Assembly: GCA_948144175.1 (NCBI GenBank)
Contig: CANXME010000542.1
Location: forward strand, 744,001 to 808,000
Reading direction: 5' to 3'
Source: Closterium sp. NIES-65
Taxonomy: Eukaryota; Streptophyta; Zygnematophyceae; Desmidiales; Closteriaceae
DNA length: 64,000 nucleotides
A program made the translations under genes and the position numbers. Shown here piece after piece: positions 3,001-64,000 of the stretch (positions are counted from its first letter, which is position 1; the number at the start of each line of letters is the position of its first letter). A model generated the notes under the pieces. That model was not told the origin of the DNA, did not search any database, and saw nothing but the letters and a program-made list of their open reading frames with translations.

Positions 3001-3035
3001 ATTCATTCACTCGTACTTTTCTCACACATACAACA
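1..3035 (+). mobile_element. Ty1/copia retrotransposon A, 3' part (cut by window edge)
   Basis: Fossil copia element entering from the left edge. From left to right it shows the low-complexity integrase-to-RT linker rich in Glu, Pro, Gly and Ala codons (about 1-530), a serine/proline-rich stretch (540-1030), the reverse transcriptase (about 1140-2110, recognisable by MWIFRVKR, KARYVARG, SPTPKMTTLRILL and FLQGSLHEEIW), and the RNase H (about 2110-2670, with GHADASW, SCEAEIYAGAMAAQELR and the terminal ADIFTKAL). A polypurine tract (TATGGGGGTG) precedes the 3' LTR at 2898-3035, which runs TGTCAAAC to ACAACA. The protein is very close to element B and the LTR resembles that of D, so A, B and D form one lineage. 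It is broken, with several breaks. It appears inserted into copia fragment G, whose RT sequence starts directly after the LTR. Confidence 0.85.
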
Positions 3036-25377: not shown

Positions 25378-25409
<32 letters not shown>

Positions 25410-28400: not shown

Positions 28401-30202
28401 TGTCTCGGCGATTTCCCCTGTTGCCGGCCGGTCGTGGCATTTTAAATTCACGCCATCGTATCCTCCTGTTTTTGCCATCGTGGATGTCACACTGTTGTTG
28501 CCCTGCAGCTCCGCTCGTGCCTTCTTCATTTTCCAACACGCCAAGAGTCGATGTCCTGCTGCGCCGCAAAATTCGCACTTCTCATATTTTGTCGGCCGCT
28601 GCTTCGCGTCGATCTTGTTGACATCCATTGGGTCGGCGGTCATGGGTGGTGCCGATCGCTTCGTGCCAAATGATCAGTTCGGCATGTGGCATCGCGTCTC
28701 GGGCTCACATTGCATTAGCGCATCGAATCTCTCTGCTGCACACACCATGTCGTGGTAAATGTTGTAGTTTGCGGCAATCACCTGTCGGCGGACTTCCATC
28801 TTTAGCCCCTCGATATAAGCTTGGATTTTTTCCCCTTCGGTCAGGTCGATAATTCGGTTGAAGAGGCTCTCCATCTGCTGCGTGTACTGTGTTACACTAC
28901 CGAACTGTTTATGCCGATGAATCTGCTGCCGCGCCATGTAGCTGGAGTTGATTGGTTCGAAACGTTGAATTAAAGCTTCCCGAAACTGCGTCCATGACCC
29001 CTCGCCTCGGATCTTATTGTTGTTGTAAATCCACTCGAGCGCTGGGCCTCGTAACAGTGTCGCTGCGAGCCGAATCCGCATTGCATCGTCTGTCGGGGTC
29101 GTACAGCCAACGGCCTCGAAGTAAATTTCGAGGGTCGCAATGAATCGACGAACGTCAGTGTCTCTCGCATTCAGATTGAACGTCTCCGGTAGCCTCGGAC
29201 GTGCCACCTCAAGATTCACTGTAGTCGCTGCCACTGCTGCTGGGTGAAGTGTCGGTGTAGCCGCTGCTGGTGCTGACGTCGCTGCTGCATTCGCTGCTGC
29301 GTTCGCTGCAGCTATGGTGGCTACCGACTGGTTCGCGAGAAGCTCCTCTATTCGCTGGAGTGCTGCTTGCGTCTGGTCCAGGCCGGTGTGTAAATCCGCT
29401 ATGTTTCGTACGGAATTATCACCGTTTTCCTCCATTTGACGATTTACCGGAAGATTTGCGACGGAAATCATTAAAGTCTAGGCGCTGGTTATCTTACTGT
29501 GAGTCGAATCGGCTGTAGAATTGACGAGCGCTGATTCTGTAGGTCGCGTAGTTCTCCCTTAGTCGAAATTTGCGTCCAATCTCGGCCGTTGAGAAGAAAT
29601 TCGATCCGACGCTCCAAATTCCAACGTTTTTGGGCTAAATTCTCAGGGCCTGAGATTCGAGTCGATCTGACGGTCGAAATTCCAACTTTTTTGCCACTAG
29701 ACCTGAGGAGTGTTCAAAAACCGGTTCGAGGGAAACGTTAGAAAATAGCGCGGAACAGGTTTACGTACCCGAATCGGCACTTTCCGTTGTCGCCCCCGCA
29801 GTTTTAAAAGCTAGGTTTAAGCGGTCGAAAAACTTCGCTTCTAAACAGGCTCTGATTACCAAGTGTGAGAATCTACGATCGAGCTCAGAAAAGAGAATGT
29901 GAATTGAATGATCACCTGGGTACAAGACGAGGCTATATATAGGCTCGACACAAGGCCCCGTAACCAGGTGTTACGCGAAGGTTCCGCGGGTCTCGAAGCG
30001 TCCCGAACAGATCCTTCCCGAATTCGATAGAAGGCAATTCTGTGGCAACCGAAAAGCCAGAATTCGGTGCACGAAACCTAGCTCGGTGCTATAACTTAAA
30101 AAAAAATATAGGAAAGCACCTAGCCTAGGAAATCAAGCAATTCATGCATTCATATAATTATCCTATGCTAGAAATAGCATGATAAGCCGTCGTACTCTCA
30201 CA
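23169..30202 (-). mobile_element. Ty3/gypsy chromovirus E, nested in D
   Basis: Minus-strand fossil with LTRs 23169-23536 and 29864-30202 (TGTGAG to CTCACA, about 5% different by eye) and a perfect target duplication GTATA (23164-23168 and 30203-30207). The primer site (TGGTAATCAGAGC, minus) is just inside the right LTR. In coding order: gag (29471-28674), zinc knuckle (CEFCGAAGHRLLACW, about 28580), protease (LQALVDSGASHSVCD, about 27890), RT (VVYLDDILIYF, about 26870), RNase H (VVEADASDQAVGAVL, about 26490), integrase zinc region (HFGSNKTLAGI, CDTCQRMKSSK), integrase core (VVIDKFSKMGHF, LISDRDPRFTSKFW) and a C-terminal chromodomain (FLIRWKRYDPTEDSW, about 23640). The chromodomain places it with chromoviruses. 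It is interrupted by F and has a few further breaks; RT to integrase is otherwise well preserved. Confidence 0.9.
24579..25693 (-). mobile_element. Non-autonomous one-LTR insertion F, nested in E
   Basis: Insert in the integrase region of E, bounded by a perfect GAAGG duplication (24574-24578 and 25694-25698). The left part (24579-24707) is a copia-type LTR ending ATTCTGACA followed by CACCCCCAT, the minus-strand purine tract. The interior has no gag or pol. It carries GC-rich sequence (24840-25200) and repeats of gggccgcgacg (25440-25690) like the leader of element B, plus a long G run (25379-25407). Only one LTR is recognisable. The leader similarity suggests a derivative of the B family. 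Confidence 0.75.
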
Positions 30203-33200
30203 GTATATATAGAGATCACAGTACACGCAAGGCCTAAAACAAGTGAGGAAAAGTGGGCACCAGCCCCAGCAAAGTGCAGAAGCGCTGATGATCACCAGGC
30301 TGAAGTGCCTTGGTGAATATATCAACAGTGTTGGCCTAAGAGGCCACGTAACGCAGACGAAGCTGAACGCACTGCTGCAGCTCTTGAGCAAGGAAGTAAC
30401 AGAGAGCGATGTGCTTCGTTCTGTGCTCTAGTCTGTGCTCCGCACACAAGGCAATGGCAGCCTTGTTGTCGACGTACAGCACTGGAGGAGAACTAGGCCG
30501 CTCTCCCAGGTCGGTCAGCAGGTAGGTGAGCCAGCGTAACTCCTGTGCAGCCATGGCTGTGGCGTAGATCTCAGCCTCACAACTGGAGCTGAGAACTGAA
30601 GACGAACGCGTAGAACACCACGAAATTGAGCCAAGGCTGAAGGTGTAACCCTATGACGACCACTGAGTAGCCTGGTCGTCAACCCAAGAAGCGTCTGAGT
30701 GCCCAGTGAGAACAACTCAGCTTCCTCCTCCAAGCACGAGCCCCATGCCCGATGTACTGCAATACCCTCTTTGCAGCATCCCAGTGCGCCTTTCGGTGCC
30801 TGCTAGGAGCCACGTAGCGGGCAAGAAGGCCAAGAGGGTATGCTAGGTCAGGACGAGTGCAAGTCATCAGGTACTTGAGGCAACCAACTAGCTCTAGGTA
30901 AGGACCACTCGACTCTACGGACCCATCCAAAGGCAGAGCTGAGAGCGAGTGACCTATAGCCAGAGGAGTGGCCTGTGCCGAGGACCTGGTGAAGCCGAAG
31001 CGCTGAAGGACCTGCTGCACCATGTGTGACTGAGTCATGGTGATGGTGCGGCGTGCTCTGTCCCGGGTGATCTGCAAGCCAAGGTAACTGCGCAGCTCAC
31101 CCAGGTCAGTGCACGTGTGTCTCTTCTACAGCTCCGACTTCACCAGAGCGAGAGCCTCAGTGTCAGCAGTGGCAAAGACCAAGTCGTCGACGTACACGAG
31201 GATGTAGAACGGCGGCAGCGAAGTGTCGGTGCACAGAAACAGCGACGGGTCAGCAGTAGAAGGCGCGAACCCAAGAGCCGCAAGCGTAGTCCTCAGTGTG
31301 TCGTGCCACTCACGTGGCGCCTTGCGGAGACCGTAGACCTGCCGCCGGAGGCTCCACTGGGTACCAGGAGGGAACGACCCAGTGAAGCCAGGAGGGCGGC
31401 ATAGCCAGATCTCCTCGTGCAGGCTGCCCTGCAAGAAAGCTGTGCTGAAGTCAAGAGAATGAAGCTCGTAGTCATGCTGAGCGGCAACGTGTAGCAGCAC
31501 CCGAAGAGTGGTCATCTTCGGGGTGGGGGAGAAGGTCTGAAAGAAGTCTAATCCCTCTCGCTGACTGAAGCAGGACACAGGCAACACAGGACAAGACTCA
31601 GGCTCACGACGGTCTGTAAGACCGCCTGTCGGACCAGTGTAGGGAGAAGGACCAGGAAGCGGCGAGGCAGGCGGTAACTGTGACTGCGACTGGACAGGCA
31701 GAGGGAGGAGGACTAGGAGGAGGCGGCTGACCAAGAACCTGCTGAAGGAGTGGAACGAAGTTCGGCTGCGGCCGTGAAGTGCCCCCAGCAGCAGAGGAGA
31801 CAGCACAAGAACCTCCAGCAACTCCAGCAGAACCTCCAGCTGCTCTAGCAGCACCTCCAGCACCTCCAGTACCTCCAGCAGCTCCAGCAAAACCTCCAGC
31901 AGCTCCAGCAAAACCTCCAGCAGCTCCAGCAGCACCTCCAGTACCTCGAGTACCTCTAGTAGCTCCAGCAAAACCTCCAGCAGCTCCAGCAAAACCTTCT
32001 TCAGCTCCAGCAGCACCAGCAGCACCTCCACGAGCTCCAGGACCTCCACCAGAAGTAGGGTCTCCAGCGGGCGGTATCACAACACCAGGAGCTCCACTCC
32101 GGAGGCTGCAGCGCTGAGCGTACCACTCACGGAGCCGCTGAGGGGAGGGACACTCCGGCTCCAAAACGGCACCCGCAGGACCACTCGCCCCAACTCCAGC
32201 AGACCCCCCAGCTCCACAAGCCCCACGATGGAGGCTGTAGCACTGGGAGTACCACTCACGCAGCTGCTGCGAAGAAGGAGCGCTAGCAGGCGCAATACAG
32301 TCAGTCTCAAAGTTCCCAGCCTCAGCGCCTCTAGGCGCAACACCCCCAGTCGCAGCACCTCCAGGCTCAGCACCCGCAGTCTCCGCACCCCCAGTCTCAG
32401 CACTCCCAGGCTCAGCACCCTCAGTCTCAACACCTTTAGGCTCAGCGCCCCCAGACCCAGCACCCCCAGGCTTAGCGCCCCCAGACCCAGCACCACCAGG
32501 CTCAGCTCGCTCAGCACCTCGCACAGGACCATAGTCAACAGCTACCTCGATAGGCTCGACCGGGTCTACCTGGGAAACACCTGAGGGAGCAGCACCCTGG
32601 GGAGGCAGGGGGTCTACCGAACCAGAACCTGGCGTGAGGAAGAGCCGCGGAGGGGGGAGCGGGGCAGTGCAGTAGGGGAAGAGACGGTAAATGGGTCTCG
32701 ATTCGTCAAAGGTGACGTCCTGAGAGGCGAAGACCCGGCGTGAGGTGGGGTGGTAAAATTGTCAGCCAGGCGCGTTAGGGACAAAGCCAAGGAAGACACA
32801 GGGAACGGCATGGGAGGAGAGCTTGTCCGCGGACGTATCGCGGACAAAGGCTCGACATCCCCAGACGCGGAACACCGACGCATCGCCAACCTCCCCCTTC
32901 CAACGCAGGGTAGGCGAGGTCTCTGGAACAGAGACTCGGGGCCAGAGGTTGAGCTGATGCGTGGCGTACTACACTGCAAACGGCCATAGGAAATGGGGGG
33001 CAGCTGCATGGATCATGGAAGTACGAGCGACCTCCATGACAAGACCAATGTGGCACTCAGCAACCCCTTTCTGCTGCGGAGAGGCCGGGAGTGTGAACGA
33101 CTGGGTGATGCCGTGCTCCGCACAGTAGGCTGCCAAGAGGTCAGAGGAAAACTCGCTACCTCTGTCAGAGTGCAGACGCAGGACAGGAAAGTCCGACTGT

Positions 33201-40600: not shown

Positions 40601-43600
40601 ACGGGCTGACTCCTATGTCGGCCTCCGGCAATGAGGGGAGTAGTGGGACGTCGCCTTCGGCGCCGGCCAAGGGCATCGCTGGTGGCCGACGTGACGAGAG
40701 GCAAGTCGACGTGGGATTGAAGCCGACGTCGACAAGGGAGGAGCAGGTCGAGGAGCAGCAGCCGACAGGGGAGCAGGTAGCAGTTAAGCCGACCACGGAG
40801 CAGTCGGCAACCAGACAGTCGGCGATAGGGGAGAGGTCAACCAGGAAGTCGACCGAGGTGCAGCAGGACGACGAGGGCAGTGAAGACGGTGACGAAGGAG
40901 GGGACGCCGGGGAGTCCACCAAGAGTGACGTGCTGGAGGTTCGGCCTGAACCCCGGAAGTCGGATCGAGTTCGGAGGCCGCTGGACTTCTTCGTCCCCGC
41001 TGCCTTCACCACAGTGTACGACGTTGTGAACCACATGCTGTTTTTGTAAGGCCACATGTCGACCCGCTGACGACCACCTGCTGTACGACGACGCCGAGGA
41101 AGATGAGGAGTTTTTGGAGCTTGACCCTGACGTGCTGGCCGACCCTGAACACCGTTGGGACATCTCGACGATGACGGTGAAGGAGGCTTTGGCAAGCTGG
41201 AAGGGCCCGGCGGTGAAGGGCGCCATGGAGGAGGAGATCCGCAGCCTCATCAACATGGGCACATGGGAGCTGGTCGAACGCCTGCCAAGGGTCAACATCA
41301 TGAAGAACCGGTGGGTGTTGACGACGAAGTACCACATTGACGACACCGTCGAGCGCAAGAAGGCGAGGCTGGTCGTGAAGGGCTTCACGCAGGTGTACGG
41401 TGCCGACTACGACGAGACGTTCGCGCTGGTGGGCAGCTACGTCACGCTGAGGATCTTCCTCAGCATCGTCGCCGTCCTCAACCTCAACCTGATGCAGCTC
41501 GACATGAAGAACGCCTTCTTGCAGAGCAAGCTCGACTGGGTGCTCTACATGTCCCAGCCGGACTACTTCAACGACGAAACCGGCCAGGTCTGCAAGCTGC
41601 TGAAGAGCCTGTACGGGCTGAAGCAGTCGCCGCTGCTGTGGTACTTGGCGGTCAACGACGTGTTGGTCGACGCCGGATGGAAGAAGAGCCAGGCCGACGA
41701 GGCTCTCTACTTCAAGGTCGGCAAGGACGGAGTGGCCTGCTGGGTGCTGGTCTACGTCAACGACCTGCTCGCCGCCAGCAGCAGCACCGAGATGCTGAAG
41801 GAGCTGAAGGAGCTGCTGGAGTCCGCCTTCGAGTTGCGTGAGATCTCGCCGGTGCAGAAGTACCTTGGGCTGGAGATCGTCCGCGACAGGTCAGCGGGGA
41901 AGCTGTGGCTGCACCAACAGGGCTACGCTTACAAGCTGTGTAGGCGCTTCGTTGACAAGGAGCAGACCGGGCACACCCCGAAGACGCCGGTCTCGGTCGT
42001 CGCCTACGCCGAGCTCACCTTCGACGATGAGGAGGCGCAGGAGCGACAGAAGGAGGAGTACTGGCAGAAGGTCGGTTTGCTGCAGTTCGCGGCGACGACG
42101 ACGAGGCTGGACATCGCCTTCGCCTGCAGCAAGCTGGGGAGTGGTCTCACGGTGCGGAGCGACCAGCACTGGCGCGAGGTCGACCGCTGCCTCACCTACC
42201 TCGCCAACACATGTGACAACGCCCTGGAGTTCGGCGGTGGACAAGAGTCGCTGGAGCTGGTCGGCTACGTGGATGCCGACGACGCCGGTGACAAGCAGAA
42301 CAGGACGAGCGCGGGCGGCTACGTGTTCGTCTATGGAGGGGCCGCAGTCTCCTGGTCAAGCCAGCGAATCAAGTGCGCGACGCTGTTGTCGACCGAGTCG
42401 GAGTACGTGGCGGTTACCGAAGCCGGCAAGGAGGGACGTCGGCTTCTCTTCCTCCTCGCCGAGTTCCGGCAGCTGGATGCCGGGAAGCCGACCGTCCTCC
42501 GGGTGGACAACAAGTCGGCCATTACAGTCGCCGAGGGTATGGGGTTGACGGGCAACCTCAAGCATATGGAGCGGCGACAGGCCTGGCTGCAGCACATGGT
42601 GAAGCGCGGGAAGTTTTCACTGAAGTACATCCCGACCGCTGAGCAGCCGGCCGACTTCCTGACGAAGGCGCTGCACTATCCGGCCTTCAACCGGTGCTCC
42701 GTTGCCATCGGCCAGGTGCGCTTGGCCGACGTGGGCGACGAAGTTGACGACGTGCAGCACTAGGTGTCATGCCCTCTTGCATGGCTGGTGCGGTGGACGA
42801 CGTGCTGTGAGTTGGGTGCACGTCGAAGAGCTATTCTCCGAGGAGTACTGCCGTGTGGGCTGGGGGGCCCAAGCGTGAACGCAACAAGGGAGTGTCAACG
42901 GGAGTTGTGTGTTGGCCCTGTCCTCGCTTGGGCGGAGCCAGCTTCATGGTCGGGTGTGAGGGGAGCAGCCGACCTGCAGCAGTGGGCGAGCTGGTTGACA
43001 AGGAGGTCGACCTGCACTGTACGGGCGCCGACTTCAAGGTGGCGCAGCCATCTGGGAGGTCGACCTGGGAAGTCGACCTACGGAGGACGTCAACTTGATG
43101 CCGTCAACTTGGAGCAGCCGACTTGGGTAGTCGGTTGACGAACTGCTGGTCGACCTGCTGGTGGTCGACCTGACCTGGTGGTCGACGAAGGAGGGGCCGA
43201 CGTCGACCTCGACTCAGGACGTCAAGCAGTTGGGCGTCGAGCAACTGGGCGTCAACTTGGTGACGCCGACTCCAGGTAGCCGACTTGGGGGTCGGCCGAC
43301 AACTGCGCTGGTCGACATGGAGCTGGTCGACCAGAAGTGACGTCGACCTGGAGCTAGTCGACCAGGGGCTTGGTCGACCTGGTGAGGTCGACTTGGGGTG
43401 GCCGTCGACTTGGGAGGTCGACGGGCACATACAGGAGCAGCTGGTCGACGTGGTTGCCCGGTCGACCAGGTTACCTGGGTGACGAGGTTCTGCGGAGGAG
43501 TGCGACGGTCGCCCAGGCGAAGTCGGGGAGTCCGACCTCGGTGGTGGTATCCCGAGGTCGACATGGCGGATCAGGTGGAGTCGTCAGCATGGGGTGACTT

Positions 43601-45683: not shown

Positions 45684-48600
45684 TCAGGCGTGCTCCTCCT
45701 CCAGATAATAGGAGTCACCATTCGCTGCACTCCCTGCTCCCTGCTCCCCTCCCCGCTGCTCACCTCGCCCTCCCCCCTCTCGCCCTCGCCACCCTGCTGT
45801 TGCTGACCCTCCACCCATGCCAGCAGCAGAATTAGCGGCAGCAGCAGCAGCAGCAGCAGCCACAGGGCCATGAGAGGCACGTGGTAGAGCTGGATGTGCG
45901 GCATCCAAGGCGTCATGGTGGGAGGGCAGTGGCAGCGGCGGCAGGTTGGTGGTGAGCCCCACGCCCGTGGCGTGGCACGCCCGCGTCTGCGGTATGTTCT
46001 CCAGCGGCCGCTTCTCTGCCTCTCCAGGACACTGCGGGGAGAGGGGCAGGGGGAGGGGGAGGGGGAGACAGGATGGTGTTGGGGAGGGCGGAGATATGTG
46101 GTGGATAGAAGTCGGGTAAAGGCGATGGTGGAAGACAAGGGAAGAGGACATACAAAGAGCACCTGTGGCATGGCCGCTCGGGCTCACCATTGAGACTACA
46201 AGACAGTCCTATGAGATGCAGGAGAGGTTGAAGGTGTGACAGCTCGGTGCAGAGAGCAGCACTGGAGCAGCAAAGGCTGCATGCGCCCCTCAGGGCACAG
46301 AGTGCACACGAGACACAGACATGGCGCCATGTAGGTCCGGCCACAGACATGGCGCCATGTAGGTCCGGCCACAGACATGGCGCCATGTAGGTCCGGCCAC
46401 AGGCATGGCGCCATGTAGGTCCGGGCACAGGCATGGCGCCTTGTAAGTCCGGGCACAGGCATGGCGCCATGTAGGTCCGGGCACAGGCATGGCGCCATGT
46501 AGGTCCGGGCACAGGCAGACACTGGTGGTGCTGTGTGCACACACGGACACGTGTCCATATGCCCCAACCCCCCACGCCCCCATGATCTATGCAAGAGTTC
46601 ACCTCTGCACGGGTACATAACCACCACACTCCCCAGTGTCCTTCCCCCCTCACCAGCAAGCGCTCCCCCCCTCACCAGCAAGCGCTCCCCCCCTCACCAG
46701 CAAGCGCTCGTGCAGTTGGTGCACGTAGCGGGGCTTACATAGAGGAGCCAAGCATGCAGGCGAGGCGAGACAGTCCCATGGGCACCTGTGACAACCGCAC
46801 TCCCCAACCTCATCCACTCACGAGGATGCACTCCTGCACTTGGTGCACATAGCACGGCTCATAGCAGGGCACATAGCAGGGCACGTAGCAGCACGCGCTC
46901 CTGCACTCACCAGCACGCGCTCCTGCACGGGGTGCACATAGCAGGGCTCGGAGGAGCCGAGCATGCAGGCGAGGCGGCCGTTGGAGCGCCAGTCGCTGTG
47001 CTTCCACTTGGCGACGTTCATGGTGTAGGGCGTCACCCCCGCCACCCCCGCCGCCACGTACCCAAACGTGGACGTGTCCGTCACCAGCAGCACGTCACTG
47101 CCCACCCCGCCGCGGCGCACAGGCGCATGGGCGCACGCTCGCATGGGGGAACAAGCACCAATCAGTCATGTGAGAGATCAATGTTGAGAGGTATATGTGT
47201 GTAACGCGAGGGATGAAAGCACAAGTTTGAGAAGAGACACGGATGGGTGACATATGTGAGTGATGCTGAAGGCAAATGGTGAAAAGAGAGATTCAAAAGC
47301 ATGGGGCACGTGAGGTGGTAACGGGGAGAAGTGATGGCGGAGAGGGGGGGTCGGGGGGCTGCACCAGAAGGCGAGGAGCCACATCTCGGTGACGGCGAGC
47401 TCGTACTGAAGCTGGTCCTCCTGCTTCTCCTGACCCTCTCCACTCACACTGCCACGTGCATGGTGTGTGGGTGATGGCGCATGGGAGATGATGCATGGGA
47501 GATGATGCATGGGAGATGATGCATGGGAGATGATGCATGGGAGATGATGCATGGGAGATGATGCATGGGAGAGGCATGAGTTCGTTTCATGCCCGCTGAG
47601 TGCCCCATCATGCCATGAAAGAAAACCCACTCTTGCATGCATGCACACCACAAGAATGACATGTGAAGCCCTGAGTAAGCACAGCACATCCTGTCTAGTA
47701 AGTACCACCAAACCTAGAGAGCAGTGCACAGAACGTAGACGGTGGTGGGTGGCACCTGAAGACGGAGACAGTGCTGCCATCCAGCGGCTTGCCCAGCATG
47801 TAGCGGTCGCGCAGCTTGGTGCCGTGGGTGGGGTTGAGCGAAACCACCAGCGCCCCGATGCTGCGCCCGCGCACGCCCAGCAGCGCCTCCTCCGTCACCT
47901 GCACGTTGCCCGGGGGTGGAAAGCGGTGCAAAGGGGGTGGTGCACTTTAGTGGGGAGTGATGCATGGGGAGTGGTGCATGGGGAGTGGTGTATGGGGAGT
48001 GGTGCATGGGGAGTGGTGCATGGGGAGTGGTGCATGGCTGCCCTTTTGCCTGCGCATCGGATCGAGCTCATTCACTGCATTATGCTTGCACGCTTGCATC
48101 CAGAGGACTGGGAGCGAGAGATGCAACGAGAGGGACCACGGGTACCATGGCGGCAGCTGTGTTCCTCACGTGCCACTCACAGAGGCAGCGGTGTGGCGCC
48201 ATTGGTCGGTGGGCATGACAGGCGGCAGCACTCTGGCGATGTTGGTGGCGCACTCAAACACATTCACCATCAAATCCTCCTCTGTCTCCTCGAATGCCCG
48301 GATCTGACATGGAAACACATGCACACACATGGGACACACATGGACATACATGCACATACATGCACACACATGCACACACACACATGCGCACACATGGACA
48401 CACATGCACACACATGCACACACACACATGCGCACACATGGACACATGCACACACATGCACACACACACATGCGCACACATGGACACACATGCACACACA
48501 TGCACACACACACATGCGCACACATGGACACACATACACACACATGCACACACATGCACACACATGCACACACACGCAGACACATGCACACACATGCATA

Positions 48601-51600
48601 CACATGCACATGCACACACATGCCCACACATACCTACACATGCACACACATGCACACACATGCACATACATGAACAAACATGCACACACATGCACACACA
48701 TTCATACACATGCACACACATGCACACACATGAACACACATGCACACACATGCATACACATGCACACACATGCATACACATGCACACACATGCACATGCA
48801 CACACATGCCCACACATGCCCACACATGCACACACATGCACACAGATGCACACACATGAACACACATGCACACACATGCACACACATTCATACACATGCC
48901 CACACGTGCACAAACATGCCCACACATGCGCACACATGCACACACATGCACACACGTGCACACACATGCGCACATGCACACACGCACACATGCATACACA
49001 TGCAAACACATACACACATGCAAACACATACACACATGCACACACAGATGCACACACACATGCACACGTACAGATGTGGTGAGCACATGTATACTCATGG
49101 CCTACTTCCAACCCTCCTTTCCTATCTACTTTCCCCTCCCCCCATTCCCCTTCTCGGCTCCCTTCTTACGAACCTCCCATCCTGTCATTCCAACACCATG
49201 TCTCCCACCCCAACTCAATCCCCCTTCCCCTTCCCCACTCCCACCTGCTTCCCCGGCCTCTCCCCCTTCCCCTAACCCCTCTCACCCCCCCCTGTGAGCG
49301 GACCTGCAGGCCGACGGTGAGGGAGTGGAGGGCGAGGTGGCCGTGGTAGAGGCGGGTGATGCGATCCCACAGGTAGTTGGCGGGGTGCAGCAGGTACCTG
49401 CACCGCACATGCATGGCACACACATGGCACACGCACGGCACACGCACGGCACACACACGGCACACGCACGGCACACGCACGGCACACGCACGGCTCACGC
49501 ACGGCTCACGCACGGCACATGCATGGCACATGCACGGCACATGTATGGCACACGGGTGATGGACAGGGTGGTGCTTGAGTGGAACCAACAAGGGTTGCTG
49601 CAGGCCATGGGAGACCTTCGCAGTTGGGCATAGATCACATGAAGTTTGCATCGAACCAGGTTGAGATGACATGAGGCTCATACATTGAACCCGGTTTGTT
49701 ACGATTGGAGTATGATGCTTAAATCGAAAGGTGGTGACAACTGACCGAGAAAGGTGCGTGAAGACTCGTCGATCGGGAAAAAGGGACTCGAGCTGAACCT
49801 GCAGGGGCGAGCAGACGGGGAGAGGAATGGAGTGAGTGAGAGGGAGAGGGAGAGAAGGGTGGGCATGTAGAGAGGGAGGGGGCAAGGAGCAAATGGGCAT
49901 GGTAAGGACGATATGGTTGGGCGCTGCCAAGGTTGGGCGCTGCCAAGGTTGGGCGATGCCAAGGTTGGGCGATGCATGCCAAGGTTGGGCGATGCCAAGG
50001 TTGGGCGATGCCAAGGTTGGGCGATGCCAAGGTTGGGCGATGCCAAGGTTGGGCGATGCCAAGGTTGGGCGATGCCAAGGTTGGGCGATGCCAAGGTTGG
50101 GCGATGCCAAGGTTGGGCGATGCCAAGGTTGGGGATGAGAGAACATGTGGTGACACAGATAGGAGCATGCAAAGAAGGATTGTTCACAGAACAGCATTGG
50201 CAAGATGCTGCCATCACGCGGCATGCCTCTCATCGTGGCTTGCCAAAACGACCTAAGCTTCCTTCCTGCGGCATGGGGAAGTGGCGGACCCACGCACACA
50301 ACTCATGCAGCACTGCCAACGGGGCAAGTGGTGAGTTGGCCGTGTGAGCCACTGGGCACATGCACACATGCCTGACCGCGCCCCACAAGTAAATGCACAG
50401 GCCAGTGCCGCTGCAATTAGCGTGTGCAGCAGGTCATGATGGCCCCAACCTGCACCCCAACCTGCACCCCAACCTGCACCCCAACCTGCACCCCAACCTG
50501 CACCCCAACCTGCACCCCAACCTGCACCCCAACCTGCACCCCAACCTGCACCCCAGCCTGCACCCCAGCCTGCACCCCAGCCTGCACCCCAGCCTGCACC
50601 CCAACCTGCACCCCAGCCTGCACCCCAGCCTGCACCCCAGCCTGCACCCCAGCCTGCACCCCAACCTCGAGAGCCGGGCCAGCCAACCCCACTGGCCCTG
50701 CTCTCAACGCCAAGGGTTCTTTCTCCATACCCACCGTACCACACCAATGTAACACTGTATGGGCAGCACCTACCAGCAGCACATACCTGCAGCGAGGGCA
50801 CCAACACTACCTGCAGCGAGGGCACGAGGTAGAAGTGCACCTGCAGCGAGGGCACGAGGTAGAAGTGCGGCACGAGGAAGTAGTCGGTGTAGAGCGTGGC
50901 GAAGCGCGCCGTGGCCATCTCCTGCTGCTCCGCCTCACAGAACATGCCCCACGTGTCCGCCTTGGAGCTACCCGTGGCCCGTGGGAAGGGAGGGAGGGAG
51001 CGGAAAGATCCGAGAGAAATGTGAGGTGGGGGGGATGGGGGGGTTGAGGAGAGAGAGAGAAAGACAAGGGGGGAGCAGGTTTGCGAGTGAGAGAAGAGAA
51101 TCGCGCACCTCTACTCAACGCACGAGCGATAAACTTTAAAAAGATTTTTGTAATTTTACTTTTCCTGTGATTTTGTGCAGCACAGCAGCAACCAAGCAAG
51201 CTGGATTGGAACCAGAAAGTGAAATGTAAATGCTGACATCACTCACTCCCATGACATATGCATGCTGACGTCATCTACTCCCATGACATGTACATGCTGA
51301 CGTCACTCACTCCCATGACATGTGCATGCTGACGTCATGGCCGTCCCATCCATTAACAAGGCCTCGGTTGCGCGCCAGCGAGCGGTGCACCGTCTGGGAT
51401 ATGGTGCTGGGGGAGGCGTGTGTGTGGGGAGGTGGGATGAGGTGCATAATGTGGGGAGGGCATATGAGAAAAGAGAAAGGAGGGCATGTGAGGAGGGCTT
51501 GTGAAAGGCAGTGGTGGAAGTGACATGCAAAACAGGTGCTTTCGATGATGGTGGCTAGCCCTCCCTAAATGAGCAGAGTATGCAGCTGAGAGCAGAGTAT

Positions 51601-54600
51601 GCAGCTGAGAGCAGAGTGGTTGCAAGCATGGCGACTCACTTGTAAGCATCGAGCGGGATGGTCCAGGAGGTGCCGGGGAAGGGGTCACAGAAGAAGCGGA
51701 AGAGGAACGAGTCGGGTGGGATGATGAGCGTGCGGTTCGTCAGCAGCGCGTACGCGAAGGCCGAGATGAGCGCCATTATGCGGTTGCCCATGCCTGCAGG
51801 CGTGCAGCAGGGGAGACCAGGGCACACACGTGGAGAGAGGGGGGTGAGGTGCACGCATAATGGCCGCCCACAGCAATGGTATGCTTGCCCTGCATGGGCC
51901 TCACCTGCATTCTCACACCCTTCTGTCTCCCTAAAAACCACTCCATCACGTCACCCTAGACCCATGCCCCATGGGAATAGCTTTGAGAAGCTTCACATCA
52001 CACAACAAGCCGCCTTGCCCCTCAACGTCACCCCTCCTCCCCGCACCACATCCTGCCAGCCCCCGCACTCACGCACTCCACCCCCCCCCCCCCCCCCATT
52101 GCATGCGTAGACAGCCCCCAGCCTTGCCAATGTGCCCACCAGGCCCCAGCCGCGGCCGGGCATACATGCACCCTCAGCAGACAGTGGGCAGAGAAAGCGC
52201 ACGTGTCGATGCTCTGTGCAAGGCTCTTGCAATGGCGAGCAGAGGCGGTGCAATGGGACTTGAACCCCTCTCATGTATCTCCGTTTTGTCCAATCATTTC
52301 TTGCTCCACAAGTCAAATACTTGGTGTTGTTGTGCCTCAAAGGCATTTCAGGGGCGTACCATGGTAGGCGGGCGGCATAAAGAAGAGATACTTGCAGTTG
52401 CCCAGCCCGTCAACGCCATCCTTCCACCCCATGTACCTGCACCCCGCACAGTGATTGGTGGGGGGGGGCATGGGAGACAGGCAGAGGCGTGGATATGAAC
52501 GCCAGAGGCACGGAATAGGAACGGCAGAGGCATGGAATAGGAATGGCACAGGCATGGAATAGGAATGGCACAGGCATGGAATAGGAATGGCACAGGCATG
52601 GAATAGGAATGGCAGAAGCATGGAATAGGAATGGCAGAGGCATGGAATAGGAATGGCAGAGGCATGGAATAGGAACGGCAGAGGCATGGACTAGGAATGG
52701 CAGAGGCATGGAATAGGAATGGCAGAGGCATGGAATAGGAATGGCAGAGGCATGGAATAGGAATGGCAGAGGCATGGAATAGGAATGGCAGAGGCATGGA
52801 ATAGGAATGGCAGAGGCATGGAATAGGAACGGCAGAGGCATGGACTAGGAATGGCAGAGGCATGGAATAGGAATGGCAGAGGCATGGAATAGGAATGGCA
52901 GAGGCATGGAATAGGAATGGCAGAGGCATGGAATAAAAATGGCAGAGGCATGGAATAGGAATGGCAGAGGCACGGACTAGGAAGGCTCACGGGTTGCGGT
53001 AGAAGGCAAGCCAGTCGTGGATCTGTGTGCAGCGGCGGTGCATCCGACGGTACTCCGACAGACGCCGCCGCAACGCCAGTGATGGCGGCAGCTGCCGGTC
53101 AGGGCGCTGCGGTGCACGTAGAGAGAGGGTTGGGGGGAGAGGCCATGCAGAAGGGCGGGGTGCATTAGAGAACGCGAGGGGACAGGAAGACGAGGAGAAG
53201 AGGCGAGGAGGGAATGGTGAAACAAGAGAAACAGGCGCAGCCTCAACGCCAGTGATGGGGGAGCTGGCGGTCGGGGCGCTGCCATGCACGCAGAGAGAGG
53301 GGAGGGGGGAGAACAGGTTGCCAGTTAGATAGACGGGCAGAGAGAAATGGTGATAGAGAGAGGCTCGTGACCAATGGCACGTGGGATGCAGACAGAGAGA
53401 GCAGCGGAAGACGGGGAAAAGTGGTGAGGAACACATAAGTGCATCTCACCGTGACATACATGCATCTCACCGTGACATACATGTGCATCTCACCGTGACA
53501 TACATGTGCATCTCACCGTGACATACATGCATCTCACCGTGACATACATGTGCATCTCACCGTGACATTCATGTGCATCTCACCGTGACATACATGCATC
53601 TCACCGTGACATACATGTGCATCTCACCGTGACATACATGTGCATCTCACCGTGACATACATGCATCTCACCGTGACATACATGTGCATCTCACCGTGAC
53701 ATACATGTGCATCTCACCGTGACATACATGTGCATCTCACCGTGACATACATGTGCATCTCACCGTGACATACATGTGCATCTCACCGTGACATACATGC
53801 ATCTCACCGTGACATACATGTGCATCTCACCGTGACATACATGTGCATCTCACCGTGACATACATGTGCATCTCACCGTGACATACATGTGCATCTCACC
53901 GTGACATACATGTGCATCTCACCGTGACATACATGTGCATCTCACCGTGACATACATGTGCATCTCACCGTGACATACATGTGCATCTCACCGTGACATA
54001 CATGTGCATCTCACCGTGACATACATGTGCATCTCACCGTGACATACATGCATCTCACCGTGACATACATGTGCATCTCACCGTGACATACATGTGCATC
54101 TCACCGTGACATACATGTGCATCTCACCGTGACATACATGTGCATCTCACCGTGACATACATGTGCATCTCACCGTGACATACATGTGCATCTCACCGTG
54201 ACATACATGTGCATCTCACCGTGACATACATGTGCATCTCACCGTGACATACATGTGCATCTCACCGTGACATACATGTGCATCTCACCGTGACATACAT
54301 GTGCATCTCACCGTGACATACATGCATCTCACCGTGACATACATGTGCATCTCACCGTGACATACATGCGCATCTCCCATTTGCTCCAGCATCTGTCGCC
54401 TGCCCGCCGCGTGTGCCGTTTAACTCCGTCCACCCACACCCCAGGGCCCGCCATGCCGCCACGCGCGCCCACGTGCATGCGCTCACGCCCATCGCTACCG
54501 TCGTCGTACCTGCCACCGCCCCCCTCACTGCCACCGCCCCCATCACTGCCACCGCCCCCCTCACTGCCTTGACCATCCGCCAGCCTGCGACGCCCACCCG

Positions 54601-55381
54601 TGCCTCGCCTGCCCTCCCCTCGCCTGCGCGCCTCTCCGCCCACAGAACATCCTCGCGCCTCTCCGCCCACTGAACCTCCTCGCTCCTCCGTCAACTCCCT
54701 TCCCCGCGACGCTTCCCGCCTGCCCTCCCGCGTCCGCTCCCCCTGCAATTCCCGCTGCGCGCCCCTTGGCGACCGCCCTCGCGTCCCCCCTTCGTCGCCG
54801 CCACGCGCATGCTGCTGTGAGTGCGGACCCGACAACCACCCGCCCACATCGTCGCCGCCTAGGCCTTCACTCTCGCCGTCACCTCCGTCACTGTCACGTC
54901 CTTCAGTGTCACCTCCGCCAATGTCACCTCCGTCAATGTCACCTCGGTCAGTGTCACCTCCATCAATGTCACTTCCGTCAATGTCACATCCGTCAATATC
55001 ACCTCCGTCAATATCACCTACGTCAATATCACCTCCGTCAATGTCACCTCTGTCAATGTCAGCGCGTGAGCCCCCAACCACACGATCGCTCATTCCATCT
55101 CCCCTCGTGTCCGTGTCGAACCCATACCCTCTCCAAGCCTCGCCGTTCCCACCCACGCGCCATTTACGGTCATCCCGCGCCTCAAAGTCCGAACCATTTC
55201 GCCGCCATGTCCCAACCGGCTCACCCGCCCTCGCCCTCGCTAACGCCCTGCGCAAGACGGGCCCTTCACCAGCGGCGGCAGCGGCGGCGGCGAGCATCAG
55301 CAGCGCCGCCGCAACGCGCGCGACAACCGCTGTCGACCGGCGAGAGTAGGTCGGCCCCGATGGCGCCATGGCGTAGCGCAC
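45684..55381 (-). CDS. GT37 alpha-fucosyltransferase, 13 exons
   Basis: Minus-strand host gene. Exons in coding order: 55381-54356, 53106-52991, 52436-52360, 51793-51640, 51406-51311, 50967-50787, 49798-49746, 49397-49304, 48303-48181, 47898-47756, 47448-47365, 47097-46911, 46031-45684. All 12 introns are GT-AG, the phases agree and the total is 893 codons. Protein: N-terminal hydrophobic anchor (residues about 18-38), long low-complexity stem with DIDGG repeats (about 108-165), CWSKW and [13 protein letters not shown], then HGMGNRI (406-412), [27 protein letters not shown] (596-605), STFGYVAAG (725-733) and [13 protein letters not shown] (792-804). These follow plant FUT1/GT37 order. The expected role is Golgi type II GDP-fucose transfer to xyloglucan or arabinogalactan-type glycans; the acceptor is unknown. 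It is longer than the usual 500-560 residues because of the stem and an Ala/Gly-rich tail. The start could also be Met5. The splice sites are my reading, not transcript-based. Confidence 0.85.
46311..46520. repeat. 26-bp minisatellite in intron 12
   Basis: About eight units of 26 bp containing CATGGCGCCATGTAGGTCCG. Each unit has a short palindrome (ATGGCGCCAT). Confidence 0.95.
46655..46870 (-). repeat. Extra copies of the exon 12 end and donor in intron 12
   Basis: The exon 12 end (minus strand GAGCGCGTGCTG|GTGAGTG at 46911/46910) recurs at least three ways downstream. A short copy of CAGGAGCGCGTGCTG follows immediately. A copy of CYVHxVQExxL|GTGAGTGG lies at 46822-46866. A longer one at 46655-46772 includes the LACMLGSS segment and ends in three 22-bp units, each with TTGCTG|GTGAGG. 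Confidence 0.85.
47474..47577. repeat. 14-bp minisatellite in intron 10
   Basis: About seven units of GGGAGATGATGCAT, related to the intron 9 unit (shared GGGAG..G.TGCAT pattern). Confidence 0.9.
47948..48036. repeat. 14-bp minisatellite in intron 9
   Basis: About six units of GGGGAGTGGTGCAT. The unit resembles the 14-bp unit of the next intron. Confidence 0.9.
48308..49075. repeat. 10-bp (CATGCACACA)n array in intron 8
   Basis: About 75 units of CATGCACACA and close variants, running to within a few bases of the exon 9 acceptor (48304). On the transcribed strand this is a long alternating UG-rich tract, which may affect splicing or Z-DNA formation. Confidence 0.95.
49405..49553. repeat. 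11-bp minisatellite in intron 7
   Basis: About 13 units of GCACGGCACAC and variants, ending 8 bp from the exon 8 acceptor. Confidence 0.9.
49913..50135. repeat. 16-bp minisatellite in intron 6
   Basis: About 14 units of CCAAGGTTGGGCGATG, the first ones with GCGCTG, one with an extra GCAT. Confidence 0.95.
50448..50668. repeat. 12-bp minisatellite in intron 6
   Basis: About 18 units of ACCTGCACCCCA with an AACC/AGCC alternation. On the minus strand each unit contains CAGGT. Confidence 0.95.
50781..50868 (-). repeat. Tandem in-frame donors at the exon 6 end
   Basis: The exon 6 end CTCGTGCCCTCGCTGCAG is repeated: after the first copy a 30-bp unit and then a 24-bp unit each end CTGCAG followed by GT. 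Possible donors follow 50841 (GTGCAC), 50811 (GTAGTG) and 50787 (GTATGT). All three leave the same phase and would add 0, 10 or 18 residues (repeats of FYLVPSLQ). GTATGT is the best donor and I used it. Confidence 0.85.
51238..51336 (-). repeat. 32-bp triplication of the exon 5 donor
   Basis: Three 32-bp units plus a partial fourth. The first is the last 25 bases of exon 5 plus the donor (CATGGGA|GTGAGT at 51311/51310). The others lie in intron 5. One copy keeps GTGAGT and the middle copy reads GTAGAT. Confidence 0.9.
52500..52983. repeat. 22-bp minisatellite in intron 2
   Basis: About 22 units of 22 bp built around GGCAGAGGCATGGAATAGG. The array starts within a few bases of the exon 2 donor (52990) and fills most of the intron. 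The apparent long ORFs here are repeat artefacts. Confidence 0.95.
53225..53290 (-). repeat. Duplicate of exon 2 start with its acceptor
   Basis: A second copy of the exon 2 acceptor and first 35-40 bases (minus strand GGCAG|CGCCCCGACCG) lies about 175 bp upstream of the real one (CGCAG|CGCCCTGACCG at 53106). The flanking pyrimidine-rich tract is copied too. The decoy is one base shorter early on and soon meets a stop, so its use would not keep the frame. Confidence 0.8.
53439..54374 (-). repeat. 23/21-bp minisatellite seeded by the exon 1 splice donor
   Basis: About 41 near-identical units of 23 bp (some 21 bp). On the minus strand each contains ATGTCACGGTGAGATGCACA. The first unit overlaps the last bases of exon 1 and includes the real junction ACG|GTGAGA at 54356/54355, so nearly every unit repeats a donor-like GTGAGA. 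It fills most of intron 1. Confidence 0.95.
54890..55065 (-). repeat. 15-bp coding repeat in exon 1 (DIDGG)
   Basis: On the minus strand this encodes about twelve tandem [15 protein letters not shown] pentapeptides within the stem of the fucosyltransferase. It is an acidic, flexible, length-variable spacer between anchor and catalytic domain. Confidence 0.85.
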
Positions 55382-59715: not shown

Positions 59716-62700
59716 ACAGCTGCAACCAGAGTTGCTGCTGCCTTGGGCTTGCTTTCACCACTGTAAACCCACCTGTTCTGTCCCAAGGCAGCAGCATCTC
59801 TGGATCCTGTTGCCTTGGGCCTGGTTTCAGCGTTGTAAACCCACCTGTTCTGTCCCAAGGCAGCAGCAACCGTGGATGCTGCTGCTTTGGGCCTGGTTTC
59901 AGCACCATGCCTCGACCTGTTCAGTCCCCAGGCAGCAACAACCAGAGTTGCTACTGCCTTGGGCTTGCTTTTACCAATGTAAACCCACCTGTTCAGTCCC
60001 AAGGCAGCAGCAACCGTGGATGCTGCTGCCTTGGGCCTGGTTTCAGCACCATGCCTCCACCTGTTCAGTCCCCAGGCAGCAACAACCAGAGTTGCTACTG
60101 CCTTGGGCTTGCTTTCACCATTTAAAACCCACCTGTTCAGTCCCAAGGCAGCAGCAACCGTGGATGCTGCTGCCTTGGGCCTGGTTTCAGCACCATGCCT
60201 CCACCTGTTCAGTCCCCAGCCAGCAACAACCAGAGTTGCTACTGCCTTGGGCTTGCGCGGAACCACTGTAAACCCACCTGTTCAGTCCCAAGGCAGCAGC
60301 AACTTTGGATGCTGCTGCCTTGGGCTTGCTTTCACCATTTTAAACCCATCTGTTCAGTCCCAAGGCAGCAGCAACTTTGGATGCTGCTGCTTTGGGCCTG
60401 GTTTCAGCACCATGCCTCCACCTGTTCAGTCCCCAGGCAGCAACAACCAGAGTTGCTACTGCCTTGGGCTTGCTTTCACCAATGTAAACCCACCTGTTCT
60501 GTCCCAAGGCAGCAGCAACCGTGGATGCTGCTGCCTTGGGCCTGGTTTCAGCACCATGCCTCCACCTGTTCAGTCCCCAGGCAGCAACAACCAGAGTTGC
60601 TGCTGCCTTGGGCTTGCTTTCACCACTGTAAACCCACCTGTTCTGTCCCAAGGCAGCAGCAGCTTTGGATGCTGCTGCCTTGGGCTTGCTTTCACCATTG
60701 TAAACCCACCTGTTCAGTCCCAAGGCAGCAGCATCTCTGGATGCTGCTGCCTTGGGCCTGGTTTCAGCACCATGCCTCCACCTGTTCAGTCCCCAGGCAG
60801 CAACAACCAGAGTTGCTGCTGCCTTGGGCTTGCTTTCACCATTTTAAACCCACCTGTTCAGTCCCAAGGCAGCAGCAACCGTGGATGCTGCTGCCTTGGG
60901 CCTGGTTTCAGCACCATGCCTCCACCTGTTCAGTCCCCAGGCAGCAACAACCAGAGTTGCTACTGCCTTGGGCTTGCTTTCACCATTTAAAACCCACCTG
61001 TTCAGTCCCAAGGCAGCAGCAACCGTGGATGCTGCTGCCTTGGGCCTGGTTTCAGCACCATGCCTCCACCTGTTCAGTCCCCAGCCAGCAACAACCAGAG
61101 TTGCTACTGCCTTGGGCTTGCGGGGAACCACTGTAAACCCACCTGTTCAGTCCCAAGGCAGCAGCAACTTTGGATGCTGCTGCCTTGGGCTTGCTTTCAC
61201 CATTTTAAACCCATCTGTTCAGTCCCAAGGCAGCAGCAACTTTGGATGCTGCTGCCTTGGGCCTGGTTTCAGCACCATGCCTCCACCTGTTCAGTCCCCA
61301 GGCAGCAACAACCAGAGTTGCTACTGCCTTGGGCTTGCTTTCACCAATGTAAACCCACCTGTTCTGTCCCAAGGCAGCAGCAACCGTGGATGCTGCTGCC
61401 TTGGGCCTGGAATCAGCACCATGCCTCCACCTGTTCAGTCCCCAGGCAGCAACAACCAGAGTTGCTGCTGCCTTGGGCTTGCTTTCACCACTGTAAACCC
61501 ACCTGTTCTGTCCCAAGGCAGCAGCAGCTTTGGATGCTGCTGCCTTGGGCTTGCTTTCACCATTGTAAACCCACCTGTTCAGTCCCAAGGCAGCAGCATC
61601 TCTGGATGCTGCTGCCTTGGGCCTGGTTTCAGCACCATGCCTCCACCTGTTCAGTCCCCAGGCAGCAACAACCAGAGTTGCTGCTGCCTTGGGCTTGCTT
61701 TCACTATTTTAAACCCACCTGTTCAGTCCCAAGGCAGCAGCAACCGTGGATGCTGCTGCCTTGGGCCTGGTTTCAGCACCATGCCTCCACCTGTTCAGTC
61801 CCCAGCCAGCAACAACCAGAGTTGCTACTGCCTTGGGCTTGCGCGGAACCACTGTAAACCCACCTGTTCAGTCCCAAGGCAGCAGCAACTTTGGATGCTG
61901 CTGCCTTGGGCTTGCTTTCACCATTTTAAACCCATCTGTTCAGTCCCAAGGCAGCAGCAACTTTGGATGCTGCTGCCTTGGGCCTGGTTTCAGCGCCATG
62001 CCTCCACCTGTTCAGTCCCCAGGCAGCAACAATCAGAGTTGCTACTGCCTTGGGCTTGCTTTCACCAATGTAAACCCACCTGTTCTGTCCCAAGGCAGCA
62101 GCAACCGTGGATGCTGCTCCCTTGGGCCTGGTTTCAGCACCATGCCTCCACCTGTTCAGTCCCCAGGCAGCAACAACCAGAGTTGCTACTGCCTTGGGCT
62201 TGCTTTCACCAATGTAAACCCATCTGTTCTGTCCCAAGGCAGCAGCAACCGTGGATGCTGCTGCCTTGGGCCTGGTTTCAGCACCATGCCTCCACCTGTT
62301 CAGTTCCTAGGCAGCAACAACCAGAGTTGCTACTGCCTTGGGCTTGCTTTCACCATTTTAAACCCACCTGTTCAGTCCCAAGGCAGCAGCAACCGTGGAT
62401 GCTGCTGCCTTGGGCCTGGTTTCAGCACCATGCCTCCACCTGTTCAGTCCCCAGCCAGCAACAACCAGAGTTGCTACTGCCTTGGGCTTGCGCGGAACCA
62501 CTGTAAACCCACCTGTTCAGTCCCAAGGCAGCAGCAACTTTGGATGCTGCTGCCTTGGGCTTGCTTTCACCATTTTAAACCCATCTGTTCAGTCCCAAGG
62601 CAGCAGCAACTTTGGATGCTGCTGCCTTTAGCCTGGTTTCAGCACCATGCCTCCACCTGTTCAGTCCCCAGGCAGCAACAACCAGAGTTGCTACTGCCTT

Positions 62701-64000
62701 GGGCTTGCTTTCACCAATGTAAACCCACCTGTTCTGTCCCAAGGCAGCAGCAACCGTGGATGCTGCTGCCTTGGGCCTGGTTTCAGCACCATGCCTCCAC
62801 CTGTTCAGTCCCCAGGCAGCAACAACCAGAGTTGCTGCTGCCTTGGGCTTGCTTTCACCACTGTAAACCCACCTGTTCTGTCCCAAGGCAGCAGCAGCTT
62901 TGGATGCTGCTGCCTCGGGCTTGCTTTCACCATTGTAAACCCACCTGTTCAGTCCCAAGGCAGCAGCATCTCTGGATGCTGCTGCCTTGGGCCTGGTTTC
63001 AGCACCATGCCTCCACCTGTTCAGTCCCCAGGCAGCAACAACCAGAGTTGCTGCTGCCTTGGGCTTGCTTTCACCATTTTAAACCCACCTGTTCAGTCCC
63101 AAGGCAGCAGCAACCGTGGATGCTGCTGCCTTGGGCCTGGTTTCAGCACCATGCCTCCACCTGTTCAGTCCCCAGCCAGCAACAACCAGAGTTGCTACTG
63201 CCTTGGGCTTGCGCGGAACCACTGTAAACCCACCTGTTCAGTCCCAAGGCAGCAGCAACTTTGGATGCTGCTGCCTTGGGCTTGCTTTCACCATTTTAAA
63301 CCCATCTGTTCAGTCCCAAGGCAGCAGCAACTTTGGATGCTGCTGCCTTGGGCCTGGTTTCAGCGCCATGCCTCCACATGTTCAGTCCCCAGGCAGCAAC
63401 AACCAGAGTTGCTACTGCCTTGGGCTTGCTTTCACCAATGTAAACCCACCTGTTCTGTCCCAAGGCAGCAGCAACCGTGGATGCTGCTCCCTTGGGCCTG
63501 GTTTCAGCACCATGCCTCCACCTGTTCAGTCCCCAGGCAGCAACAACCAGAGTTGCTACTGCCTTGGGCTTGCTTTCACCAATGTAAACCCATCTGTTCT
63601 GTCCCAAGGCAGCAGCAACCGTGGATGCTGCTGCCTTGGGCCTGGTTTCAGCACCATGCCTCCACCTGTTCAGTCCCCAGGCAGCAACAACCAGAGTTGC
63701 TACTGCCTTGGGCTTGCTTTCACCATTTTGAACCCACCTGTTCAGTCCCAAGGCAGCAGCAACCGTGGATGCTGCTGCCTTGGGCCTGGTTTCAGCACCA
63801 TGCCTCCACCTGTTCAGTCCCCAGCCAGCAACAACCAGAGTTGCTACTGCCTTGGGCTTGCGCGGAACCACTGTAAACCCACCTGTTCAGTCCCAAGGCA
63901 GCAGCAACTTTGGATGCTGCTGCCTTGGGCTTGCTTTCACCATTTTAAACCCATCTGTTCAGTCCCAAGGCAGCAGCAACTTTGGATGCTACTGCCTTGG
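59716..64000. repeat. 72-bp satellite with higher-order structure (continues past window)
   Basis: About 59 monomers of 72 bp, running off the right edge. Two main types alternate: one has a perfect 15-bp hairpin (CCCAAGGCAGCAGCA / TGCTGCTGCCTTGGG, 8-10 base loop); the other has an imperfect hairpin (CCCAGGCAGCAAC / GTTGCTACTGCC). They are joined by CCACCTGTTCAGTCC. A 73-bp variant containing TTGCGCGGAACCACTG recurs at 60251, 61116, 61837, 62486, 63207 and 63856, giving blocks of 865, 721, 649, 721 and 649 bp (12, 10, 9, 10 and 9 monomers plus one base). Because 72 is a multiple of 3, ORFs up to 541 codons appear in several frames. I read these as artefacts. Confidence 0.95.

Follow-up and report, generated by a model that had tools for sequence, protein, structure and literature searches.

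A stretch of 64,000 nucleotides from the streptophyte alga Closterium sp. NIES-65 (contig CANXME010000542.1, positions 744,001 to 808,000; hereafter the window) carries on its minus strand a GT37 (xyloglucan-type) fucosyltransferase gene, several introns of which contain tandem repeats that begin inside the preceding exon and run across its splice donor. The gene model consists of 13 exons, which are joined over 12 GT-AG introns into an open frame of 871 aa (Table 1). Two of ten translated pieces of the gene matched the Pfam profile XG_FTase (PF03254) at E <0.001. At the join of exons 6 and 7, the protein assembled from the exon pieces aligned without gaps to solved GT37 fucosyltransferases, which we take to be plant enzymes. 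The end of exon 1 is a prediction based on the donor motif, on the frame staying open and on its conservation among the copies described below.

Many loci are present twice in the assembly (874 Mb, 2400 contigs). The fucosyltransferase gene on the contig of the window (C542) is matched by a partner on C2133, and C874 and C1780 carry a second pair; all 13 exons were found in each. We call these four loci copies because alleles and duplicates are indistinguishable in this assembly. Exons 2-12 have equal lengths across the four copies with GT or AG at every listed junction, and the positions of the 12 introns are identical. At third codon positions of these exons, C542 and C2133 diverge by 5.5% and the two pairs by 16-18%; the divergence of C874 from C1780 is ~4%, in a row that is one codon position out of register. 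A spliced aligner recovered 12 of 12 introns in both copies checked, together with one and two spurious extras at low-complexity ends. We considered wrong ends for exons 2-12 and hold them to be unlikely, as the conservation among four copies, the alignment to GT37 enzymes and the result of the spliced aligner all oppose them.

Exon 1 itself contains a 15-bp in-frame coding array with an acidic-glycine motif, and similar arrays are found in the three other copies. Many GT37 loci were among the genome matches to PF03254, some of them near-full-length profile matches in one long open frame (C1858, 776 aa).

Tandem arrays at the donors of the fucosyltransferase gene

In the window copy, arrays span the donors of exons 1, 5, 6 and 12. 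The initial annotation had listed these with units of 23, 32, 30/24 and 22 bp, in agreement with Tandem Repeats Finder (TRF), the 24-bp copy being recognised by eye. It had also described the arrays as starting exactly at the exon-intron junctions; instead, the exonic part of their first units measures 21, 27, 28 and 19 bp. On the acceptor side, the duplicated head of exon 2 that it reported was found as a single recurrence 172 bp upstream, matching 85.7% over 49 exonic bases. Intron 12 also contains displaced copies of the last part of exon 12 and its donor, and arrays of introns 2, 7 and 8 come close to an exon without entering it (Table 1).

Comparing the four copies showed that the arrays differ in unit, in number and in the exons affected. 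The exon 1 array comprises 41.4 units in C542 and 2.4 in C2133, and 11.6 units of 21 bp in both C874 and C1780. At the exon 6 donor, units of 30 bp occur in the C542/C2133 pair (10 units in C2133) and units of ~20 bp in the C874/C1780 pair. The C874/C1780 pair has a 21-bp array over the exon 2 donor, which no array spans in C542 and C2133. Single copies carry a 24-bp array at the exon 7 donor (C874 only), a 26-bp array with 7.2 copies and 100% match at the exon 9 donor (C1780 only), and a 164-bp unit at the exon 10 donor (C1780 only). Altogether, arrays run across 8 of the 12 donors in one or more of the four copies, at seven of these donors with short units. Acceptors are spanned by long units only, namely that of exon 4 in C874/C1780 and that of exon 2 in C542/C2133. 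Short-unit arrays over acceptors were absent from all seven gene models that we trust, which are the four fucosyltransferase copies and the three chaperonin genes introduced below, with 68 introns in all.

Placing every array at random in the collapsed introns, separately for each copy, served as null model. For the window copy, 4 donors were spanned against 0.87 expected (P 0.0074, a value biased because the gene was chosen for its pattern). The other three copies gave 4 against 0.97 (P 0.012), 5 against 0.93 (P 0.0013) and 6 against 1.33 (P 0.00076); the four P values are not independent tests because the exon 1 and exon 5 arrays are shared by descent, and the selection bias does not affect arrays confined to C874 and C1780. 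Acceptors were spanned 0, 0, 1 and 1 times, which is at expectation. In a seed test, 4, 4, 6 and 6 of 12 donors were duplicated in the four copies, as were 1 of 12 acceptors in each and 6-8% of collapsed intron positions. The claim that arrays meet junctions more often than by chance is thus borne out for donors, in all four related copies and hence also in paralogous ones.

A 28-bp array in intron 12 has a unit that is similar to itself in direct and in reverse-complement orientation, and arrays on further contigs, e.g. C947, resemble it in part (70-74%). Introner-type introns occur as near-identical copies scattered across many loci; with 1001 bp of this one intron (most of its length) as the query of a search that skips common words, the partner gave the only full-length match, and all remaining hits were exon pieces or partial array matches. 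Elsewhere in the window, a satellite-like array of 72-bp units (~59 copies, 76% match) reaches the window end, and retrotransposon pieces are scattered over five intervals. These include an RVT_2 reverse transcriptase at three places as well as Ty3-type gag and pol with RNase H and integrase zinc-binding domains.

Table 1. Positions of genes, repeats and other features in the window
Feature	Position	Strand	Remarks
GT37 (xyloglucan-type) fucosyltransferase gene	45684..55369	-	13 exons; end of exon 1 (E1) predicted
Exons E1-E5	E1 54356-55369, E2 52991-53106, E3 52360-52436, E4 51640-51793, E5 51311-51406	-	
Exons E6-E9	E6 50841-50967, E7 49746-49798, E8 49304-49397, E9 48181-48303	-	
Exons E10-E13	E10 47756-47898, E11 47365-47448, E12 46911-47097, E13 45684-46031	-	
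15-bp in-frame coding array, exon 1	54878-55061		
23-bp array over exon 1 donor	53439..54376	-	41.4 copies; 21 bp exonic; TRF
Copy of exon 2 acceptor and head	53231..53293	-	172 bp upstream of exon; 49 exonic bases at 85.7%
22-bp array, intron 2	52480..52983	-	Begins 7 bp past exon 2 donor; TRF
32-bp array over exon 5 donor	51230..51337	-	3.4 copies; 27 bp exonic; TRF; in all four copies
30-bp unit x2 plus 24-bp copy over exon 6 donor	50787..50868	-	28 bp exonic; TRF 2.0 copies; 24-bp copy by eye
11-bp array, intron 7	49400..49554	-	Stops 2 bp short of exon 8 acceptor; exon not entered
10-bp array, intron 8	48307..49058	-	Stops 3 bp short of exon 9 acceptor; exon not entered
22-bp array over exon 12 donor	46881..46929	-	2.2 copies; 19 bp exonic; TRF
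Displaced copies of exon 12 tail and donor	46828-46860, 46698-46767	-	Within 46644..46860
22-bp x3 array	46644-46709	-	Continues from second displaced exon 12 tail copy
28-bp array, intron 12	46314-46517		
72-bp satellite-like array	59717-64000		
Retrotransposon pieces	2726-3577, 25205-27916, 28674-29471, 31126-32049, 41114-42763		

Exon-edge copies in other genes

Three chaperonin genes (CCT beta, epsilon and eta, named by their closest solved relatives) were modelled via spliced alignment. When each intron was compared by BLAST with the spliced coding sequence, copies of an adjacent exon came to light in 15 of 20 CCT introns (5/7, 6/8 and 4/5) and in 4, 4, 6 and 6 of the 12 introns of the fucosyltransferase copies. 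Neither inverted copies nor copies of remote exons were found by this comparison in the introns of the seven models. Chance similarity is ruled out by the reversed coding sequence, which as a control gave 0 matches in the same models, and an origin of the copies from spliced RNA was rejected because no intron of the seven models held a remote exon or an inverted copy. In a separate comparison, some matches crossed an exon end by a few bases into the start of the next exon; these are regarded as edge matches.

In CCT epsilon, fresh tandem arrays that include intron sequence were found across a donor (173 bp x2.6) and across an acceptor (124 bp x11.5). Duplicated seeds in the three CCT genes amounted to 4/7, 3/8 and 2/5 at donors, 3/7, 4/8 and 1/5 at acceptors, and 122/301, 138/249 and 138/187 in the exon interior. 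Since donors and acceptors are affected to about the same degree and the exon interior as often or more, it is the whole exon edge that is copied and not the junction as such.

The MCM genes revealed a similar picture, with an exon piece repeated two or three times in 3 of 4 translated loci. One of these copies has, as judged by eye, a 28-bp donor array of its own; the stretch with this array measures 415 bp in one genomic copy, whereas the partner has four units more (+112 bp) and reaches 527 bp, the rest being 100% identical. For HSP90, repeated profile intervals were observed in one locus pair (C1978 and C2069), and the other listed loci had none or short overlaps only. Short units lie over exon edges at seven fucosyltransferase donors, one CCT epsilon donor and one donor of the GT37 locus L041. 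This plus-strand locus is the only one cited among the other GT37 loci, since minus-strand hits had not been reoriented and the automatic models were mostly unusable; short low-complexity arrays over predicted acceptors in several of those models were left uncounted, as the models are wrong. Nor do we trust the L048 and L049 models or the central part of L050, and L055 and L056 enter only the self-repeat count given below. Taken together, the recurrent arrays first noticed in the window gene are real, but the pattern is not a peculiarity of that gene, given the exon-edge copies in 15 of 20 CCT introns and 3 of 4 MCM loci. Copying of exon edges into neighbouring introns is a habit seen in all three protein families examined at sequence level.

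Further arrays were noted in two chaperonin genes. L050 (CCT gamma) contains at 3348-3501 a 19-bp array of 8.1 units with 100% match that consists of an exon end with its donor (GGCATTGAGCAG|GTGAGAG) and sits ~50 bp into the following intron. In intron 4 of L047 and L054, which are near-identical CCT eta partners, a 34-bp array has 13.2 units against 5.5; a 24-bp array derived from the coding sequence of exon 5 is present in only one of the partners, and the other alone has an 18-bp array.

The units fall into two recurrent size ranges, 20-32 bp and ~120-180 bp. The distance from exon to copy is 110-180 bp in 26 of 47 listed copies, a list that omits the farther units of the CCT epsilon exon 7 array and includes homologous rows of related copies. 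A self-repeat count over all loci used, with a shift of at least 60 bp and a match of at least 35 bp, gave a shift of 120-179 bp in 99 of 208 regions; direct repeats were counted here as 100-bp regions (208) and inverted repeats as pairs (11), so that the scales differ. Units of ~120-180 bp copied donor and acceptor sides alike. Among the 68 introns, ten held copies of both kinds, and in all ten the copies of the upstream exon's tail precede those of the downstream exon's head. A keyword search of the literature revealed nothing direct on nucleosome or Okazaki-fragment size as the origin of the 150-bp unit.

Possible origins of the exon-edge copies

We regard it as probable that these are mirage-type repeats, that is, boundary-spanning direct duplications in two sizes (~20-32 and ~120-180 bp) that survive in a duplication-prone genome. 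This explanation builds on the anatomy of the repeats, their recurrence in four copies and in unrelated genes, their size classes, direct orientation and adjacency to the source exon, and the changes in copy number, all of which are observed. The genome would make short direct duplications very often. Those within exons would break the protein and be removed by selection; those spanning a junction would leave the original exon and splice site in place, the mRNA could stay unchanged, and the extra copy would be added to the intron. Junction-spanning copies would therefore survive because the original splice site still yields the correct mRNA, with the exon-adjacent splice site presumably being the one in use. 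The spliceosome is expected to choose an additional AG that is placed shortly before the true acceptor. Such an AG would probably be used and not be tolerated, whereas additional donors downstream of the true one would be harmless. Short arrays may thus be found at donors and long copies on both sides because a short acceptor duplication would add a harmful AG. Slippage would amplify the short units.

Several points weigh against this explanation. In the fucosyltransferase gene donors exceed the intron interior, which is not expected from tolerance alone. Neutral intronic copies should, moreover, have no silent bias, no preference for intact GT and AG, and no sharp loss of similarity at the splice consensus. 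The counts that address this come from rows of copy comparisons that are not independent; the freshly homogenised head array of CCT epsilon exon 7 was excluded from the codon-position, splice-dinucleotide and flank counts, and C2133 was not used for codon positions and flanks. CCT copies differ from their exons at 241 of 1075 third codon positions versus 122 of 2163 first and second positions. For MCM copies the numbers are 117 of 436 versus 24 of 865, with the pieces detected by protein profile, which favours conserved protein sequence. For a neutral copy next to a constrained exon, the ratio should be near two. Splice dinucleotides are intact in 35 of 36 cases (GT in 19/19 tail copies, AG in 16/17 head copies). 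Intron flanks are unrelated in 24 of 32 testable cases, with 2 more not testable, and similarity is lost sharply at the splice consensus, falling from ~0.88 in the exon to ~0.4-0.5 beyond +5 or -3. In addition, the 45 kb of the window outside the fucosyltransferase gene were compared for self-repeats only.

In line with a silent bias, copies of at least 40 bp in the seven models carry 260 silent and 180 replacement differences (59% silent versus 43% expected), and changes assigned to the shadow lineage number 62 silent and 48 replacement, leaving out the CCT epsilon exon 1 and exon 7 rows. With regard to the donor excess in the fucosyltransferase gene, slower decay on the exonic side would prolong the visibility of a copy, by simple reasoning at most ~twofold. 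As this effect is limited, a genuine hot spot or some advantage of the copies may be involved. The silent-site pattern of the chaperonin and MCM copies is not explained by the duplication and survival that we favour.

One origin that would accommodate this pattern is recombination between homologs. Here, the longer copies would stem from diverged functional homologs via misaligned interchromosomal recombination and would have differed at silent sites and in their intron flanks from the outset, and the short arrays alone would be products of local slippage. This would account jointly for the silent bias, the kept splice sites and the unrelated intron flanks, and functional fucosyltransferase homologs with 4-18% third-position divergence are present in the genome. 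However, CCT partner copies are ~99% identical or more, and a DNA search with one MCM shadow matched its own locus and the partner only, so that a donor homolog from outside the assembly would be required. We consider this origin a tentative possibility on the doubtful side; it is compatible with mirage-type duplication and not opposed to it.

That donors are mutational hot spots, where slippage or break repair would act on the first intron bases through R-loops or the donor motif, appears unlikely. The initial annotation had raised junctions as hot spots, and in the fucosyltransferase gene donors do exceed the intron interior, with 4, 4, 5 and 6 donors spanned against 0.87-1.33 expected and 0, 0, 1 and 1 acceptors. 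Short units were also confined to donors in the trusted models (seven fucosyltransferase donors and one of CCT epsilon, besides the one of L041). In the CCT genes, by contrast, duplication affects acceptors and donors at similar rates and exon-interior seeds at higher ones, and a donor bias could arise from intolerance of extra AGs alone.

An equally improbable reading is that the introns are stocked with maintained spare exon edges, which would evolve in a coding-like manner and keep working splice signals, either through use or because diverged functional homologs would keep supplying them by recombination in ~150-bp units. Such edges may serve alternative or stepwise splicing or act as repair templates, and if the reading were true, introns across the genome would be shaped continually by exon-edge duplication.

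We find it still harder to argue that the copies are useful, in the sense that extra donors or spare exon edges were selected for long repeat-laden introns or alternative exon ends. The excess of silent differences in CCT (241/1075 versus 122/2163) and MCM (117/436 versus 24/865), the 62:48 ratio of the shadow lineage and the retention of splice dinucleotides in 35 of 36 cases would fit such a role. Yet the copies are truncated exons, and only 2 of 23 indels in CCT copies are multiples of three (a count that includes the CCT epsilon exon 1 and exon 7 rows), so that CCT copies are not coding now. Copies of the fucosyltransferase exons are without silent bias (17 of 219 third versus 40 of 437 first and second positions); furthermore, the MCM set was found by profile and the rows are interdependent.

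Very little speaks for the earlier proposal that introns and splice sites are born here by tandem duplication over AGGT sites: exons 3, 7, 8 and 10 (4 of the 12 downstream exons) start with GT after AG and related proposals exist (PMC2891723, PMC4974935, PMC3087553), but the predicted order of copies, downstream head 5' and upstream tail 3', was seen in 0 of the 10 introns with both kinds (blastn, E 1e-3, by which old decayed traces would be missed) and was reversed in all 10, the 12 introns occupy identical places in four copies, and none of the copies in the seven models came from a remote exon.

Comparison with known systems

Intron gain by tandem duplication over a proto-splice site has been described for a potato RdRp gene and in Drosophila cases (PMC2891723, PMC4974935). 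The Closterium repeats resemble these cases in that the duplication includes a splice site; they differ in that existing introns receive the copies and none has the copy order of a gained intron. With ordinary intronic minisatellites they share direct tandem units of variable copy number, but here the units include exon ends and donors above random placement (P 0.0008-0.012), with acceptors at expectation.

The closest known kind are the mirage minisatellites of amphioxus, of which the one in Adh3 is reportedly unstable in somatic cells. These repeats occur in Adh3 and in the globin genes BflGb6 and BflGb9 with units of 10-72 bp and 150-160 bp, and RT-PCR (reverse-transcription PCR) suggested regular splicing, which the repeats were reported not to disturb (PMC3087553). 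The likeness is threefold: tandem units lie over exon-intron boundaries (here at 4, 4, 5 and 6 of the 12 fucosyltransferase donors and in CCT epsilon), copy number varies (between haplotypes there, in the exon 1 array and the MCM 28-bp array here), and there are two size classes (20-32 and ~120-180 bp here). As in mirages, 5' and 3' boundaries are both duplicated, in Closterium by the long units, whereas short units are found at donors only in the trusted models. The Closterium repeats differ in belonging to the green lineage, in being frequent (15 of 20 CCT introns), in their donor-only short units and in their silent-site bias.

Keyword searches of open-licence papers returned no report of boundary-spanning repeats in a plant or alga. 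As far as these searches reach, what is new is the frequency, the occurrence in another lineage, the restriction of short units to donors and the pattern at silent sites, and the structure itself is known from lancelets. Because arrays differ between near-identical gene copies, their birth, their spread and their effect on splicing can be followed within one genome. Intron growth, the way in which the spliceosome selects one of many identical donors (exon 1 is followed by a series of 41) and the possible rise of new introns from duplicated sites thereby become accessible to experiment. For genome annotation the copies are a trap, as the introns contain pieces of exons that retain intact splice sites and encode almost the same protein sequence. 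In the literature covered, boundary-spanning repeats were a curiosity of a few lancelet genes; in Closterium they occur in unrelated housekeeping genes, with the same two unit sizes.

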